Below, piece by piece: positions 40,669 through 46,596 of a DNA stretch of 64,000 nucleotides. This DNA comes from Selenomonas sp. AE3005. Lineage in GTDB: Bacteria; Bacillota; Negativicutes; Selenomonadales; Selenomonadaceae. A model generated the notes under the pieces. It was not told the DNA's origin. It ran no database searches and worked only from the letters and a program-made list of their open reading frames with translations. The translations under genes were made by a program, and so were the position numbers. Location of the stretch: assembly GCF_000686945.1 (NCBI RefSeq), contig NZ_JMME01000001.1:372001-436000 (forward strand), given 5' to 3'. The number at the start of each line of letters is the position of its first letter. The first letter of the stretch is position 1.

Positions 40669-41760
40669 TTATATTTTCACATATTCCGAACCAAGTTCCA
40701 TTATCTTAAGCCCGTTGCCTTCCAAAACAGCCGCCAGGTCATGGGCGGTGCCGTTGAATTCCAAGTCCACGGTGATGTTTTGCCAGGCGCTGCCCCGTAC
40801 AAATACGTTATGAACCCCGGGCAGGCCCTGCAGATACTCTGTGAGCTCTGAGATATTGCCCAGCTTGCCGCCGGTGACCAGCAGGGTTATATGCTGGCTG
40901 GGGTTGGCAGCTTTATTTAGGGCGGCCTCCCCTACGGCCTTGGCAATGCCACGGCTCGCATTACGGGCAGCCTCCTGCTCAGCATTCGGACCACGACGTT
41001 CCGATTTTCCCTGAAAGTTGCCGGCATAAATAACTTCCCCGGAATTGGCATTGAGCAAACGCAGGGAAATTACCGCCGCCGCTTTTTTCAAATTGGCAAA
41101 ACCGGGACGATTCACGTAATCGGCCAGACTACCGACGCTCATATCCACCTGCGCGGTAACAATATAATCCACAGGCGACTGCACCTGCAGAGCCTGCCAT
41201 AACTGCCGGTCACCGCTGGCATTAGCAGCCAGCAGGCGGCGCCGCAGGGAGTCCGACACCTGTCCTAAGTCAACCACCCGGGAAAAGCCCTGACTGGTCA
41301 GCCCGCTGATAATTTCGTTTTCGACGCTTGGATATGTCTTACCGCCCCGGTCGACAGCGAGAACACCGATACGGGGGTCCTGCATATTGGCCTTGATAAC
41401 GGCCTTTTTCTGCGCCAGGGTTCCCAGGGCCGCACTGATTTTCTGCTCTTGTACATCAGCTTTGATTTTTACCTGATATATCCCGTTTTTATGGGAGGAT
41501 TCCAAAACTTCATAGCTTTTGATATAACCATCGGCCTGTGTATAGACGCGGTCATAAATAAGCCGGTAATTCTGCACATAACTGCGGCTGTCGACCATAA
41601 CACCGACCTGCTGTTCCACGGCCTCCCGCAGCGCTTGTTTCAGAGCACTGCGCTCCGAACCGCCCATGCCTGTCACGGTAACAACCGCAGCCGATACAGG
41701 CTGCATGCTGACCAATAAACTCAAGGCGAGCCCTGCGCCTATTGCTGAAAATCTCCCCAT
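40669..41760 (-). CDS. Secreted FlgT/LPP20-like protein
   Basis: The 363 residues start with a signal peptide (MGRFSAIGAGLALSLLVSMQ, cleaved near PVSA). The first domain (VTVTGMGGSERSALKQALRE, QQVGVMVDSRSYVQNYRLIY, ADGYIKSYEVL) matches the N-terminal domain of flagellar assembly protein FlgT and related LPP20 proteins. The central part (IGVLAVDRGG...SPVDYIVTAQVDMS) looks CsgG/TolB-like, and the end (GLPGVHNVFVRGSAWQNITV) is a small alpha-beta module. No flagellar genes are near, so an envelope role is as likely as a flagellar one. Confidence 0.8.
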   Translation of the reverse strand: MGRFSAIGAGLALSLLVSMQPVSAAVVTVTGMGGSERSALKQALREAVEQQVGVMVDSRSYVQNYRLIYDRVYTQADGYIKSYEVLESSHKNGIYQVKIKADVQEQKISAALGTLAQKKAVIKANMQDPRIGVLAVDRGGKTYPSVENEIISGLTSQGFSRVVDLGQVSDSLRRRLLAANASGDRQLWQALQVQSPVDYIVTAQVDMSVGSLADYVNRPGFANLKKAAAVISLRLLNANSGEVIYAGNFQGKSERRGPNAEQEAARNASRGIAKAVGEAALNKAANPSQHITLLVTGGKLGNISELTEYLQGLPGVHNVFVRGSAWQNITVDLEFNGTAHDLAAVLEGNGLKIMELGSEYVKI

Positions 41761-41810
41761 TTATATTCACCTCCGCAAGATTGCTGTCACATATATATTT
41801 TATGGCAAAA

Positions 41811-41852
41811 AAAGGTCATCTGACAAGTCATTTTAACTGTCAGATGACCTTT
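41811..41852 (-). terminator. Intrinsic terminator of the fumarate reductase operon
   Basis: AAAGGTCATCTGACA and TGTCAGATGACCTTT form a perfect 15-bp stem with a 12-base loop and a run of seven T on the minus strand. Confidence 0.9.
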
Positions 41853-41879: not shown

Positions 41880-42746
41880 TCAGCCGATCTTTAATTTTTC
41901 CTGAGCCGATACGTGGCGGTTAAAGCCCACTTCCTCTTTAGTCAGGCCCAAGGCCAGGCCAACGAGCTGCTGGAGGTGCAGAATAGGTACCTGGGCCTGG
42001 GAATGTACGGCATGACGTCCTTCCGGCTCGTACATATCGAGCTGCATCTGGCACAGCGGGCACGGCGTAGCAATAGCCATAGCCCCGGCCCGGTCTGCAC
42101 TATCTACGATTTGACCTGTCACGGTCAGTACATCATGTTCGGCGGCCAGCTGTGCATGGAAACCGCAGCATTTACGGCTGGCATCGAACCAGACAGGCTC
42201 GGCTCCCAAAGCACGAATAAGACGTTCCAGATATTCGGGGTGCTTGCCATCGCCGTGGTCCATAACTTCCTGCGGACGCAAAATATGACAGCCATAATAA
42301 GCGGCAATCTTAACACCACTTAGCGGCTTTACAACCTTGCCGGCCAGAAGTTCCGGATGTTCGTCCAAAATCCACAGGAAATGCGTAACCTTGCTGGTGC
42401 CTTTGTACTCGTAAGGATGGCCAGATTCCTTAAGAATGCTGTTGACCTTTTCCTTCAGCTTGGCGTCCTTATCCAGACGCATTTTGGCCGTGCGCAGCTG
42501 CAGGGTGCAGGTGTTGCAGACGGTCATAATATCCAGCCCCATATGCTCGGCAATCGAGATATTACGGGCGTTGATAACCAACGCTGCCAGGTCATTAACT
42601 CCCTGGGCATGCGAGGCACCACAGCAGGTCCAGTTGGGAATTTCCTCAATTTCGATATTCAGCTTTTCACATACTTTTTTCAGCGAAGTGTAGGCCTCAG
42701 CTGCAGCCCCTTCCAGCACACAGCCCGGAAATAATGCATACTTCAT
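41880..42746 (-). CDS. mfrE: Fumarate reductase subunit E (HdrB-like, two CCG domains)
   Basis: The 288-residue quinone-side subunit has two cysteine-rich CCG domains: FPGCVLEG...WTCCGASH...CNTCTLQ in the first half and GCHILRP...KCCGFH...CPLCQMQ in the second. They resemble heterodisulfide reductase HdrB, which holds unusual Fe-S clusters. There is no membrane span, which distinguishes it from cytochrome-b type anchors. With the Tat-exported flavoprotein it matches SdhE/MfrE of the methylmenaquinol:fumarate reductase type known from Wolinella. The start follows mfrB by two bases. Direction of catalysis is inferred from the anaerobic context. Confidence 0.88.
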   Translation of the reverse strand: MKYALFPGCVLEGAAAEAYTSLKKVCEKLNIEIEEIPNWTCCGASHAQGVNDLAALVINARNISIAEHMGLDIMTVCNTCTLQLRTAKMRLDKDAKLKEKVNSILKESGHPYEYKGTSKVTHFLWILDEHPELLAGKVVKPLSGVKIAAYYGCHILRPQEVMDHGDGKHPEYLERLIRALGAEPVWFDASRKCCGFHAQLAAEHDVLTVTGQIVDSADRAGAMAIATPCPLCQMQLDMYEPEGRHAVHSQAQVPILHLQQLVGLALGLTKEEVGFNRHVSAQEKLKIG

Positions 42747-42748
42747 AA

Positions 42749-43705
42749 TTATTCAGCCTCCTTCGCTGCCGCCTCAGCATTCTTGACAATCTTGCGGATA
42801 GTATCTATTTCAGGATTTACTTTATGCGTATCCAGCGGATTCATCTTACCCACACGCATGAGGCGCAGGGCCATTGGTGCACGAAGTCCGGCCATAAGGA
42901 AACCCTCGGACTTGATGTTCAGCTTGGATTCATCAAGCGTACCGGACTCGCTGATATCATCATAGATAGCTTTGGCATGACGGGCACCGACGTTATCATC
43001 AAGCCCCTTCTTAAAGGTAGCCTCTTTAAGTTTTTCGATGGCACCGGCCGGGTCCAGTCCTTTAGGACATTTCGCCGTACATTCCTGACAATTAAAGCAA
43101 CGCCAAAGGCCGGCTTTGACCACGGCTTTCAAATGTTCTTCCGGACTCTTGTCACGGGAATCAGCCACCAGTTTTTCCGCCTTGACGAACACAAACGGGT
43201 CAAGGAAGTCTTCCTGATTCAAGGTGTTCTTGTTGCACTCGGACACACAGGAACCACAGAGAATGCAGCCGGCGTATTTCTTGTATTTGTTGAAGTCCTC
43301 CGGCGACTGTTTGCAGCCTTTATCCTTGGAGAACTCATCTTTGGGCTGCACCACAGGTTTGATTTTCTTGATACGGGCATACTTGGGATCCCAGTCCACA
43401 ATCAAATCGCGGATAACTTTAAAGTTGCCCAGCGGCTCAATGGTCAGTTCATTAGTGTCATATCGTTTTACCAGATTTTCTACGAGCATTTCGCAGGCCA
43501 GTTCCGCATTGCCGTTGACGCGTACCGAGCAGGCGCCGCAGATACTCGAGCGGCAAGAGCAGGTAAACGACAGCGTGGGGTCCTGTTTTTCCTTGATTTC
43601 AATCAGGGCCTCCAAGACTGTCATACCGACTTTTAAGGTCACGGTATAATTCTGCACCCATTTTCGGCCTTCCACGAAGCGATGGATTCTAAGTTTCACA
43701 TCCAT
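42749..43705 (-). CDS. mfrB: Fumarate reductase / succinate dehydrogenase iron-sulfur subunit
   Basis: About 318 residues from the ATG of MDVKLRIHRF, eight bases after AGGAAG; a TTG two codons earlier overlaps the mfrA stop. The plant-type 2Fe-2S site is CSCRSSICGACSVRVNG plus AELAC; the bacterial ferredoxin part has CILCGSCVSECN and CFNCQECTAKCPKG for the 4Fe-4S and 3Fe-4S clusters. A C-terminal extension of about 80 residues goes beyond classical FrdB. It passes electrons between the flavoprotein and the CCG subunit. Confidence 0.94.
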   Translation of the reverse strand: MDVKLRIHRFVEGRKWVQNYTVTLKVGMTVLEALIEIKEKQDPTLSFTCSCRSSICGACSVRVNGNAELACEMLVENLVKRYDTNELTIEPLGNFKVIRDLIVDWDPKYARIKKIKPVVQPKDEFSKDKGCKQSPEDFNKYKKYAGCILCGSCVSECNKNTLNQEDFLDPFVFVKAEKLVADSRDKSPEEHLKAVVKAGLWRCFNCQECTAKCPKGLDPAGAIEKLKEATFKKGLDDNVGARHAKAIYDDISESGTLDESKLNIKSEGFLMAGLRAPMALRLMRVGKMNPLDTHKVNPEIDTIRKIVKNAEAAAKEAE

Positions 43706-43707
43706 AA

Positions 43708-45555
43708 TCAATACTTCCTTTCTTTCGGCTGGTATTTCGTGATAACAACATCTTTGTACTCAGAACGGTATTTACCCGTTTCCTTGTCCTTGAAAATCAA
43801 GGTGTGTTTCAGGAAGTTTGCATCATCACGTTTCGGGAAGTCACGCCGGGAATGACCGCCGCGGCTTTCCTTGCGGGCCAGGGCCCCCTGTACGATAGCA
43901 TGGGAAATCTGCAGGAGGTTGCCCAGTTCGACATACTGCTCGAAAGCGGTGTTATATACATGAGAAGTATCGCCTACATAGCAATGCGCATACTCTTTAT
44001 CCAAAGCGTCCAGTTCGGCGCTGGCCTGCAGGAGCTGAGCCTCATCACGGAATACGCCGACTTTGTACCACATGGTGTTAATCATAGCATCGCGGATTTC
44101 CGGTACGGATTTATTACCTTCCCGGCCGCGGCTGGTTGCCTTTTCAAAGTTTTCCTTCCATTTAGCGCAATCCTTAGCCAGGCTATCCTGGCTGCCAACA
44201 TAGGAATTGGCCTTGGCAAATTCAGCCGCACCATCGCCAGCCGTATGACCAAATACCAGCACTTCCGACAACGAGTTTGCACCCAGACGGTTGGCACCAT
44301 GTACGGATACACAGCTGCACTCACCAGCTACATAAACACCCTTTACACGGCTTTCACCGGTATGGAAGTCAGCCATCTCCAGTCCGCCCATAGAGTAATG
44401 ACAGGTTGGGGCAATGGGCACAGGTTCTTTGGTAATGTCAACACCGGCAAAACGGCGTGACAGGTCATACACCTGACCGAGGCGTTCATGGATTCGCTCT
44501 GCCGGAATCTTGGTAAAGTCCATATATACGCCGGCATGAATGCCTTCACCGACACCGCGTCCTTCTTCAATTTCCGTGGCAATAGCCCGGGCTACGATAT
44601 CACGGGTAGCCAGTTCCTTTTTCTCCGGCGCATATTTTTCCATGAAACGTTCGCCGTTCTTATTTATAAGCAGTGCACCCTCAGCACGGCTCGACTCGGA
44701 GAGCAGTACGCCGTTAGCCGAGAGGCCCGTGGGATGGAACTGTACCATTTCCGGGTCTTTAAAGGGAATACCCACGTTCATTCCGGCGACAATACCATCA
44801 CCGGTGGAGCTGTACGGATTGGAAGTACGCACCCAGTATACGCGGCCATATCCGCCAGTAGCAATAATGACGGATTTAGCCGGCACGCCGAGCAGGTTGC
44901 CGCTGCGCATATCCATGGCGATTACGCCGTTAAGTTTGTCACCGTCCATGCTGATTTCCAGCATCTGACATTCGGAAATGAAGTCGATGTTGTTTTCCAG
45001 GCACTGCTCAAACAGTGTATGTACCATTGCATGACCAGCACGGTCCTCAAAATAAGAGGCACGCGGATGACTGTGGCCGCCCATCTTACGCTGATGGAAA
45101 GCACCGTCTTTCTGACGATTAAAGGGATAACCCATATAATCAAGTTCATAAATGTTGGCACCGGCACGTTCAGCAAAATACTCAACTGCGTCCTGATCGC
45201 AGAGATAGTCACCACCCTTGATAGTATCAAAGACATGGGATTCAACGGTGTCCGTGGGGTCGCTCACACCCGTTACACCGTTCATACCGCCCTGCGCCAT
45301 CGTAGAGGCAGAACGCGTGGGAACCAGCTTGGTCATTACAGCGACTTTCAAATCTTTCCGCTCAGCCGCTGCCAAAGCTGCTCTCATCCCGGCGCCACCG
45401 CTGCCGATAACCAGCACGTCATAGGTTACGTCGCCAGTTTTAACCTTTTCCGGAATGTTTTTGCCATCCCAGGCAAAGTAAGTGCCTGCTGCCAGTACGA
45501 CACCGGCAGCCGCCGCTCCTTTTATAAATGTGCGGCGTGAAATTTCCGTTGACAT
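43708..45555 (-). CDS. mfrA: Fumarate reductase / succinate dehydrogenase flavoprotein with Tat signal
   Basis: About 615 residues from MSTEISRRTFIKGAAAAGVV; the twin-arginine motif SRRTFIKG and hydrophobic stretch point to export, so the active site faces the periplasm. GGAGGG precedes this ATG. The FAD-binding Rossmann motif is VIGSGGAGMRAALAAAE. Catalytic segments are HPTGLSANGVLLSESSRAEG, GERFMEKY and CHYSMGGLEM. At the position of the usual flavin-linking His (TRSHTV) it has TRSAST, so covalent FAD attachment by that residue is not expected. First gene of an ABE operon and, with the CCG subunit, most like MfrA rather than cytosolic FrdA. Confidence 0.93.
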   Translation of the reverse strand: MSTEISRRTFIKGAAAAGVVLAAGTYFAWDGKNIPEKVKTGDVTYDVLVIGSGGAGMRAALAAAERKDLKVAVMTKLVPTRSASTMAQGGMNGVTGVSDPTDTVESHVFDTIKGGDYLCDQDAVEYFAERAGANIYELDYMGYPFNRQKDGAFHQRKMGGHSHPRASYFEDRAGHAMVHTLFEQCLENNIDFISECQMLEISMDGDKLNGVIAMDMRSGNLLGVPAKSVIIATGGYGRVYWVRTSNPYSSTGDGIVAGMNVGIPFKDPEMVQFHPTGLSANGVLLSESSRAEGALLINKNGERFMEKYAPEKKELATRDIVARAIATEIEEGRGVGEGIHAGVYMDFTKIPAERIHERLGQVYDLSRRFAGVDITKEPVPIAPTCHYSMGGLEMADFHTGESRVKGVYVAGECSCVSVHGANRLGANSLSEVLVFGHTAGDGAAEFAKANSYVGSQDSLAKDCAKWKENFEKATSRGREGNKSVPEIRDAMINTMWYKVGVFRDEAQLLQASAELDALDKEYAHCYVGDTSHVYNTAFEQYVELGNLLQISHAIVQGALARKESRGGHSRRDFPKRDDANFLKHTLIFKDKETGKYRSEYKDVVITKYQPKERKY

Positions 45556-45632
45556 ATTGCTTTCCCTCCTAAAATACACTTAGGCTTTCCCATAAATCCC
45601 ATGGAAACATTAACTAAAACTAATTATATATA

Positions 45633-45676
45633 AATAACAGCTATAAGAGAAATACATACTCCTTATAGCTGTTATT
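45633..45676. terminator. Hairpin between the LysR gene and the fumarate reductase operon
   Basis: AATAACAGCTATAAG and CTTATAGCTGTTATT form a perfect 15-bp stem with a 14-base loop. The U tract is poor on the minus strand, so termination may be partial. Confidence 0.6.
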
Positions 45677-45690
45677 GGAAAAAACAATAT

Positions 45691-46596
45691 TCAGTTGCCT
45701 TGCAAAAGCTCGATAAATTTTCGGGCGGCCTGCGATAGATGTTTATTCTTGCCATAAGCCGCCACGAGCTGACGGTCGTCCACCTGTTCTTCCAAGCTGA
45801 AGAAACACGGCTGTTCCGACCAGCGGCCGTTATTTACGACCATATCTGTGACGAGTGTGGCGCCCATACCGGCAGCGCAAAGCTCAGCAGCATCAATAAT
45901 GCTGTTGGCCTCGAAAACCACATCAGGACTGCACTGCGTTTCTATACATAAATCCTTATAAATCCGCGACATTCGGCGGCTTTCCTGCAGGCAGATAAAC
46001 GGCTGGCCATGCATACGGGCAAAGGACAGCGTGGGATATGGTTCCCCCTCCCTATGCCTATAGCCCTGCGCAAACGGATGTGTTGCCGGCAGTGCCAGCA
46101 AGGTTTTTTCGGATAACAGCGGTATACGCTCAAAATTGTTTTCCAAAGATTCATAAATAAGGGCAAAATCCACTGCCCCCTCGGCCACGGCTGCCTTTAA
46201 CTCGTGCACACTGCTTTCTTTCACCATCAGCCGTATCCCTGGGTAACGGCGGTGAAACTCAATGATAGGCTGTGTCAGATAACAGGTAGAACGTGTTCGG
46301 GAACTGCCGATAATGAGCGTACCCGATTTCATGCCCGTAAGGTCAGCTGTTTCCTGCACAAGTTCATGGTAAATCCGCTGCATTTCCTTGGCCTTACGCA
46401 CATAAATTTCCCCGGCCGCCGTCAGCTGCAACGGTGTCTGGCTGCGGTCGAAAAGCGGCAGACCGATTTCGCCCTCAATCTTCTTTATGGACTGTGATAA
46501 AGATGGCTGGGATACAAACAACCGTTTGGCCGCAGCCGAAAACGTCCCTTCGCTGGCCGCCTGTAAAACATATTTCCATTCATGTTCGTCTATCAC
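45691..46596 (-). CDS. LysR-family transcriptional regulator
   Basis: The 301 residues have the LysR winged helix at the front (WKYVLQAASEGTFSAAAKRL, FVSQPSLSQSIKKIEGEIGL, PLFDRSQTPLQLTAAG) and a PBP2-type effector domain (SGTLIIGSSRTRSTCY..., DFALIYESLE). The GTG start has GGGGAG six bases upstream. It lies directly upstream of mfrABE on the same strand, which makes that operon its most likely target, although LysR genes are more often divergent from their targets. The effector is not deducible. Confidence 0.93.
   Translation of the reverse strand: MIDEHEWKYVLQAASEGTFSAAAKRLFVSQPSLSQSIKKIEGEIGLPLFDRSQTPLQLTAAGEIYVRKAKEMQRIYHELVQETADLTGMKSGTLIIGSSRTRSTCYLTQPIIEFHRRYPGIRLMVKESSVHELKAAVAEGAVDFALIYESLENNFERIPLLSEKTLLALPATHPFAQGYRHREGEPYPTLSFARMHGQPFICLQESRRMSRIYKDLCIETQCSPDVVFEANSIIDAAELCAAGMGATLVTDMVVNNGRWSEQPCFFSLEEQVDDRQLVAAYGKNKHLSQAARKFIELLQGN

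Follow-up and report, generated by a model that had tools for sequence, protein, structure and literature searches.

The 64,000-nucleotide stretch of Selenomonas sp. AE3005 DNA analyzed here (the window) carries on its minus strand (45555 to 41880) three genes for a complex II enzyme resembling the 8-methylmenaquinol:fumarate reductase (MFR; SdhABE/MfrABE) of Wolinella succinogenes and Campylobacter jejuni. These open reading frames occupy the region that the original prediction, made from the letters alone, had assigned to an MfrABE-type enzyme, and with the ATG starts used they lie two bases apart. The first gene (mfrA-like, 43708-45555) encodes a flavoprotein of 615 residues with FAD_binding_2 and Succ_DH_flav_C domains. 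The second (mfrB-like, 42749-43705) encodes a 318-residue iron-sulfur subunit in which Pfam detects a 2Fe-2S domain (Fer2_3) and a 4Fe-4S domain, with two CxxCxxCxxxC motifs. The third (mfrE-like, 41880-42746) encodes a 288-residue CCG protein that matches PF02754 in two stretches, and ten of its 11 cysteines fit two CCG motifs in an assignment made in this analysis. A 19-residue Kyte-Doolittle scan finds no transmembrane-like stretch in subunit E (best mean 1.18), which agrees with the soluble two-CCG third subunit predicted originally.

Subunit A begins with an N-terminal extension of ~42 residues (45430-45555, minus strand) that carries a twin-arginine leader, MSTEISRRTFIKGAAAAGVVLAAG. The arginine pair is at residues 7-8 and is followed by a hydrophobic stretch, and its Pfam TAT_signal score of 24.3 bits exceeds the 22.7-bit cut-off, in agreement with the twin-arginine signal claimed originally. 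The motif that normally holds the covalent flavin reads TRSAST in place of TRSHTV, again as predicted. Alignment with 6lum_A (Succinate dehydrogenase subunit A) places Ala83 (codon 45307-45309, minus strand) opposite the histidine of PTRSHT, the site of the flavin-linking histidine.

The start of mfrA is the ATG at 45555, and an AGGAGG ahead of it (45565-45570) is the likely ribosome-binding site. A LysR-type regulator gene (45691-46596) lies directly upstream on the same strand. A perfect 15-base pair stem (45633-45676), either a terminator or a leader hairpin, separates lysR from mfrA, and a second perfect 15-base pair stem with a loop of 12 and a T-run (41807-41852), a likely terminator, follows mfrE; all three minus-strand elements were read from the sequence. 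Neither stem is in the list from the hairpin scan, which has a loop limit of 8. A, B, and E look like one unit because a stem and T-run follow E and another stem lies between lysR and A. The gene downstream behind the terminator (40669-41760) has weak FlgT_N and LipL46-like matches and is apparently unrelated. Among 109 fetched loci, 20 have a lysR homolog less than 500 bases upstream, and every one of these encodes a twin-arginine translocation (Tat) leader; in six more loci the homolog is 1.6-2.0 kb away, and many loci stop short of that region.

Juhnke et al. 2009 (PMC2680327) showed that the Wolinella enzyme is a Tat-exported (RR7/8) methylmenaquinol:fumarate reductase with Ala86 at the histidine site, flavin adenine dinucleotide (FAD) that is not covalently linked, and no succinate oxidation. 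An A86H substitution alone produced the covalent link and not succinate oxidation. The same paper gives a leader-bearing extension of ~40 residues on A, a second 4Fe-4S pattern in B, and a ten-cysteine motif in E as typical of MFR, and states that loss of the covalent histidine ended succinate oxidation in the E. coli and yeast enzymes. The Selenomonas operon shares the A-B-E gene order, the arginines at 7-8, alanine for histidine, the second 4Fe-4S pattern in B, and a cysteine-rich E with a ten-cysteine motif and no transmembrane stretch, the Wolinella motif having been compared by description. Likeness to this experimentally tested enzyme makes the predicted noncovalent FAD probable. The original prediction had treated the missing histidine as an additional departure from MFR; that part does not stand, since alanine at this site is a feature of the Wolinella enzyme itself. 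The features of canonical SdhCAB/FrdABC enzymes are absent: the ABE enzyme has no flavin-linking histidine and no cytochrome b type anchor.

NF042952 (MFR B) and NF042965 (MFR E) are the top NCBIfam models for subunits B and E. The top model for subunit A is the general TIGR01812 (699.9 bits; cut-off, 567.3), with NF042982 (MFR A) second. Two other fumarate reductase families were rejected. A flavocytochrome c fumarate reductase is not indicated by TIGR01813 (165.6 bits versus 285.45) and the heme domain is not among the Pfam matches; the flavocytochrome c3 structure 1ksu_A is only a distant match to subunit A (117 bits, E 5.5e-33, versus 481 bits for 6lum_A). The Shewanella flavocytochrome c3 is a soluble fumarate reductase with noncovalent FAD according to PMC2680327, but is a heme enzyme without B or E. 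For the thiol:fumarate reductase TfrAB, subunit A reaches 476 bits against 718 (NF004900), and B and E match NF004898 at 4-222 and 263-464, so the two parts of that protein are separate genes here. The E-type succinate:quinone oxidoreductase of Acidianus and relatives has a CCG subunit E and the extra cysteine in B, a likeness drawn by description, and differs in facing the cytoplasm (PMC2680327). The enzyme is an E-type complex II of the MFR-like kind, a known type that is widespread in Negativicutes.

This distribution was measured with NF042982 as the probe in draws of 380 Negativicutes and 150 Campylobacterota genomes. A relative of subunit A at E ≤ 1e-150 is present in 100 of the 380 Negativicutes genomes, which removes the suggestion that the trait is peculiar to one diderm Firmicute; none of these exceeds the 1100-bit cut-off. 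Matches occur in 55 of the 150 Campylobacterota genomes, 23 of them over the cut-off. Residues were then compared in 223 A-type sequences (rows), drawn from the fetched operons and a named scan (best 80 of 593 matches). Because rows were picked for resembling MFR or the window's clade, the shares do not reflect frequencies in nature; leaders were detected by a simple pattern. The histidine site is Ala in 129 rows, His in 90, Thr in two, Gln in one, and a gap in one. All 81 leader-bearing rows (56 Negativicutes, 25 Campylobacterota) have Ala, and none of the 90 His rows has a leader; the nine His rows with a good E match likewise keep the histidine and lack the leader. Within Negativicutes every one of the 56 leader-bearing rows has Ala, a pairing that is more than chance. 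These 56 rows represent 54 genomes, one Megamonas genome being counted three times, and the window's family includes Megamonas sp. UBA1799 (Selenomonadaceae, Negativicutes).

Ala without a detected leader is found in 48 rows, two of which (L194 and L274) come from one genome. Another three of the 48 (L171, L172, and L175, from genomes G668, G694, and G523) have mfrA-like frames that are damaged or partial, through decay or assembly error. The leaderless SdhABE enzymes, from other Negativicutes and Solidesulfovibrio, share the gene order where it is readable, alanine for histidine, and the B motifs (47 of 47 rows with a B match), but have no detected Tat leader and are presumably cytosolic. Seven dicarboxylate-site residues with roles known from E. 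coli FrdA are conserved, one of them as either Ser or Thr, in 56/56 Tat Negativicutes, 25/25 Campylobacterota, and 48/48 leaderless Ala rows. At one active-site position Ser is present in 56/56 Tat Negativicutes, whereas Thr is present in 25/25 Campylobacterota. Both CxxCxxCxxxC motifs are in B in 56/56 Tat Negativicutes rows, and two CCG motifs are in E in 53 of the 54 such rows with a good E match. The enzyme also differs from MFR in forming a separate group on the subunit A and B+E trees and in the lysR gene upstream of the Selenomonas locus.

The 25-contig genome, which is 99.96 per cent complete, encodes a second complex II flavoprotein (contig C6, position 113387) with KRSHS, in which the histidine is kept, and no leader. 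It belongs to a separate SdhCAB operon that also encodes a B subunit and a b558-type anchor; each exceeds its model cut-off, and the adjacent gene resembles a fumarase part by eye. The possibility that a second A subunit is the true partner of the window's B and E was thus checked and set aside: another A exists and has its own B, a cytochrome b partner, and the histidine. SdhCAB is presumably cytosolic, and the organism, like Wolinella, has two complex II systems. Separately, contig C7 encodes a flavoprotein with an RR leader by eye (L003:1273-2982; best NCBIfam model vinyl phenol reductase, 228.7 of 600 bits) beside an opposite-strand gene (L003:530-1084) with several CxxCH motifs by eye and no NCBIfam match; the pair is a possible second periplasmic reductase.

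The genome contains TatC and two TatA, one detected by model and the second by eye. The tatA-type genes and tatC are flanked on one side by a prenyl diphosphate synthase-like gene and on the other by a menaquinone decarboxylase gene (over the cut-off) and an MqnP-like gene (below the cut-off). MqnE, MqnC, and a PF02621 gene of the futalosine menaquinone pathway are on a contig other than that of the tat genes. In six genomes (L080, L163, L334-L337) tatC shares the strand of mfrA and lies no more than 5 kb downstream of it, most fetched loci extending only ~3.5 kb in that direction. The order in L163 is A-B-E-tatA-tatC; in L080 other genes, one on the opposite strand, lie between mfr and tat. 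TatC is present in 52 of 54 Tat-leader genomes. MqnE is found at E < 1e-100 in 45 of these 54 genomes and in 8 of 24 leaderless Ala genomes, a subset of all those with a leaderless Ala enzyme. The Tat-leader genomes without such a match are L080 (G296), G608, G609, and G650-G655, and L080 has a UbiD-type gene resembling menaquinone decarboxylase, by eye, beside tatA/tatC. The Selenomonas genome has tandem MqnE-like genes before MqnC (contig C10, L189:11468-13680; 463.2 and 427.4 bits; cut-off, 434.55). Related genomes contain tandem pairs of this kind as well, and the second copy may have another role.

Phylogenies were used to place the histidine loss relative to export. The A tree contains 74 representatives, and the leader and histidine column were excluded; L171, L172, L175, and L186, which are short or damaged, were left out, the first three staying in the count of 48 leaderless Ala rows. 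Ala and Thr rows form one clade (98/97), with the Gln row elsewhere. The two Thr rows (L173 and L174, from G676 and G486; PLRSTTGCTGG) are leaderless, have no detected E, and lie inside this clade. Its sister is a His-bearing leaderless ABE enzyme from other classes of the phylum (L085-L087). The Tat rows split into an 18-row Negativicutes group (100/99) and a 7-row Campylobacterota group (100/100), which are part of sister groups (99/95). The window's enzyme is in the 18-row group, throughout which the leader is kept. Two leaderless rows, L274 (Solidesulfovibrio) and L089 (G160), join the Campylobacterota rows in a clade of nine (100/100) whose internal order is weak (83/22). A single clade of the 25 Tat rows is rejected (p 0.00012, 77 log units), for a group defined after the tree was seen. 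Clustering with leaderless SdhABE enzymes, named originally as grounds for doubt, therefore applies in part: the clade is shared with them, and the nearest relatives on the trees carry the leader. The B+E tree (41 rows, one Campylobacter) recovers the His-less clade (98/97) and the Tat Negativicutes (100/99), with a long-branch warning and an unsettled order among groups. Campylobacter groups with two leaderless rows (100/98), and those two are joined (97/79).

Because the Ala rows are one clade and the leader-bearing rows are split in two groups on both trees, a single loss of the histidine, in a cytosolic enzyme and ahead of export, is probable; this order is read from the phylogenies. The two groups suggest, at about even confidence, separate origins of a periplasmic fumarate reductase in Negativicutes and Campylobacterota, both from a cytosolic ABE enzyme already without the histidine. 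If there were two origins, the intermediate state would survive in the Ala-bearing enzymes without a leader from other Negativicutes, and histidine loss would have fixed the reductive direction first. One gain of the leader with one or two losses is a possible alternative. One gain and one loss may cost as little as two gains, because the Tat groups are joined on the A tree and the leaderless pair on the B+E tree. Simple transfer from Campylobacterota was rejected on two grounds: on both trees the two leaderless enzymes (Solidesulfovibrio and G160) group with the Campylobacterota rows, and some leaderless Negativicutes outscore all Tat ones with the Campylobacterota model (up to 758.7 versus ≤ 739.8 bits; the ranges overlap).

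These observations make it very probable that the operon encodes an E-type succinate:quinone oxidoreductase functioning as MFR does, with subunit A exported by Tat, FAD bound noncovalently, and fumarate reduced outside the cytoplasm. Subunit A would bind FAD without a covalent link and cross the Tat translocase, and, if Wolinella is a guide, B, which has no leader, would travel with it, as E probably would. The complex would sit on the outer face of the inner membrane, where menaquinol, methylated or not, would pass electrons to E, then B, then FAD. Fumarate or a similar unsaturated acid would be reduced outside the cytoplasm, making import needless. Without the covalent link, the enzyme should run only in the reductive direction, towards succinate. 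Periplasmic fumarate respiration in Selenomonas sp. AE3005 is plausible.

Several results weigh against this interpretation. Subunits A, B, and E score 661 of 1100, 340 of 600, and 317 of 500 bits, all below the NCBIfam MFR cut-offs, and for this reason the enzyme is not filed as MFR proper. TatC hardly discriminates, being common anyway (329 of 380 Negativicutes genomes), and two Tat-leader genomes have no TatC match: G638, which is 68 per cent complete, and G532 (L166), which is ~100 per cent complete. A strong MqnE match is lacking in nine of the 54 Tat-leader genomes. A HemN_C probe detected no menaquinone methyltransferase, but it showed no MqnK in four Campylobacterota genomes either. 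The sole HemN_C protein of the Selenomonas genome is HemW (320.6 bits; cut-off, 205.4), and the four Campylobacterota genomes have one HemN_C protein each, HemN-like by motif. PMC6682613 states MqnK for C. jejuni and Wolinella, and PMC10320005 reports a MenK-clade protein for C. jejuni.

The same exported enzyme might have another unsaturated acid (mesaconate, crotonate, or similar) as its true periplasmic substrate, with fumarate reduction a side reaction. The title of Guccione et al. on the jejuni Mfr points this way, the separate SdhCAB could handle fumarate inside, and an MFR-overproducing Wolinella mutant does not grow by fumarate respiration according to PMC2680327. We consider this unlikely, though the most serious of the alternatives, because the dicarboxylate-site residues are those of succinate/fumarate enzymes in every leader-bearing Negativicutes row. 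It is quite improbable that the leader is unused for export and the enzyme cytoplasmic. The leaderless Ala-bearing ABE enzymes of the same class share the clade, and the nearly complete G532 has the leader without a TatC match; but the leader is kept throughout the window's 18-row group and exceeds the Pfam cut-off, tatC is nearby in six genomes, and a similar leader is functional in Wolinella (PMC2680327). Least probable of all is a succinate dehydrogenase, as the TIGR01812 score of subunit A would allow, given that histidine loss ended succinate oxidation in the E. coli and yeast enzymes, that Wolinella's natural Ala enzyme has none (PMC2680327), and that a canonical His-bearing SdhCAB is present in the genome.

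Many Negativicutes-type anaerobes make propionate or succinate. A literature search, mostly at title level and covering few subscription journals, found no report of an MFR-type enzyme for Negativicutes, Selenomonas, Sporomusa, or Firmicutes. Passages of PMC9585023, PMC6682613, PMC10320005, and PMC10238741 likewise gave no description of one in Negativicutes; the Quinella paper (PMC9585023), on a related genus, mentions a fumarate reductase and a quinol-fumarate oxidoreductase and leaves the details to its supplements. The exported, MFR-like reading of the Selenomonas operon extends to Negativicutes a fumarate reductase type characterized in Campylobacterota, and predicts that these anaerobes can use external fumarate without import. 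Histidine loss before export, if the order holds, separates two traits previously described together, and the role of covalent FAD thereby becomes testable in natural leaderless enzymes.

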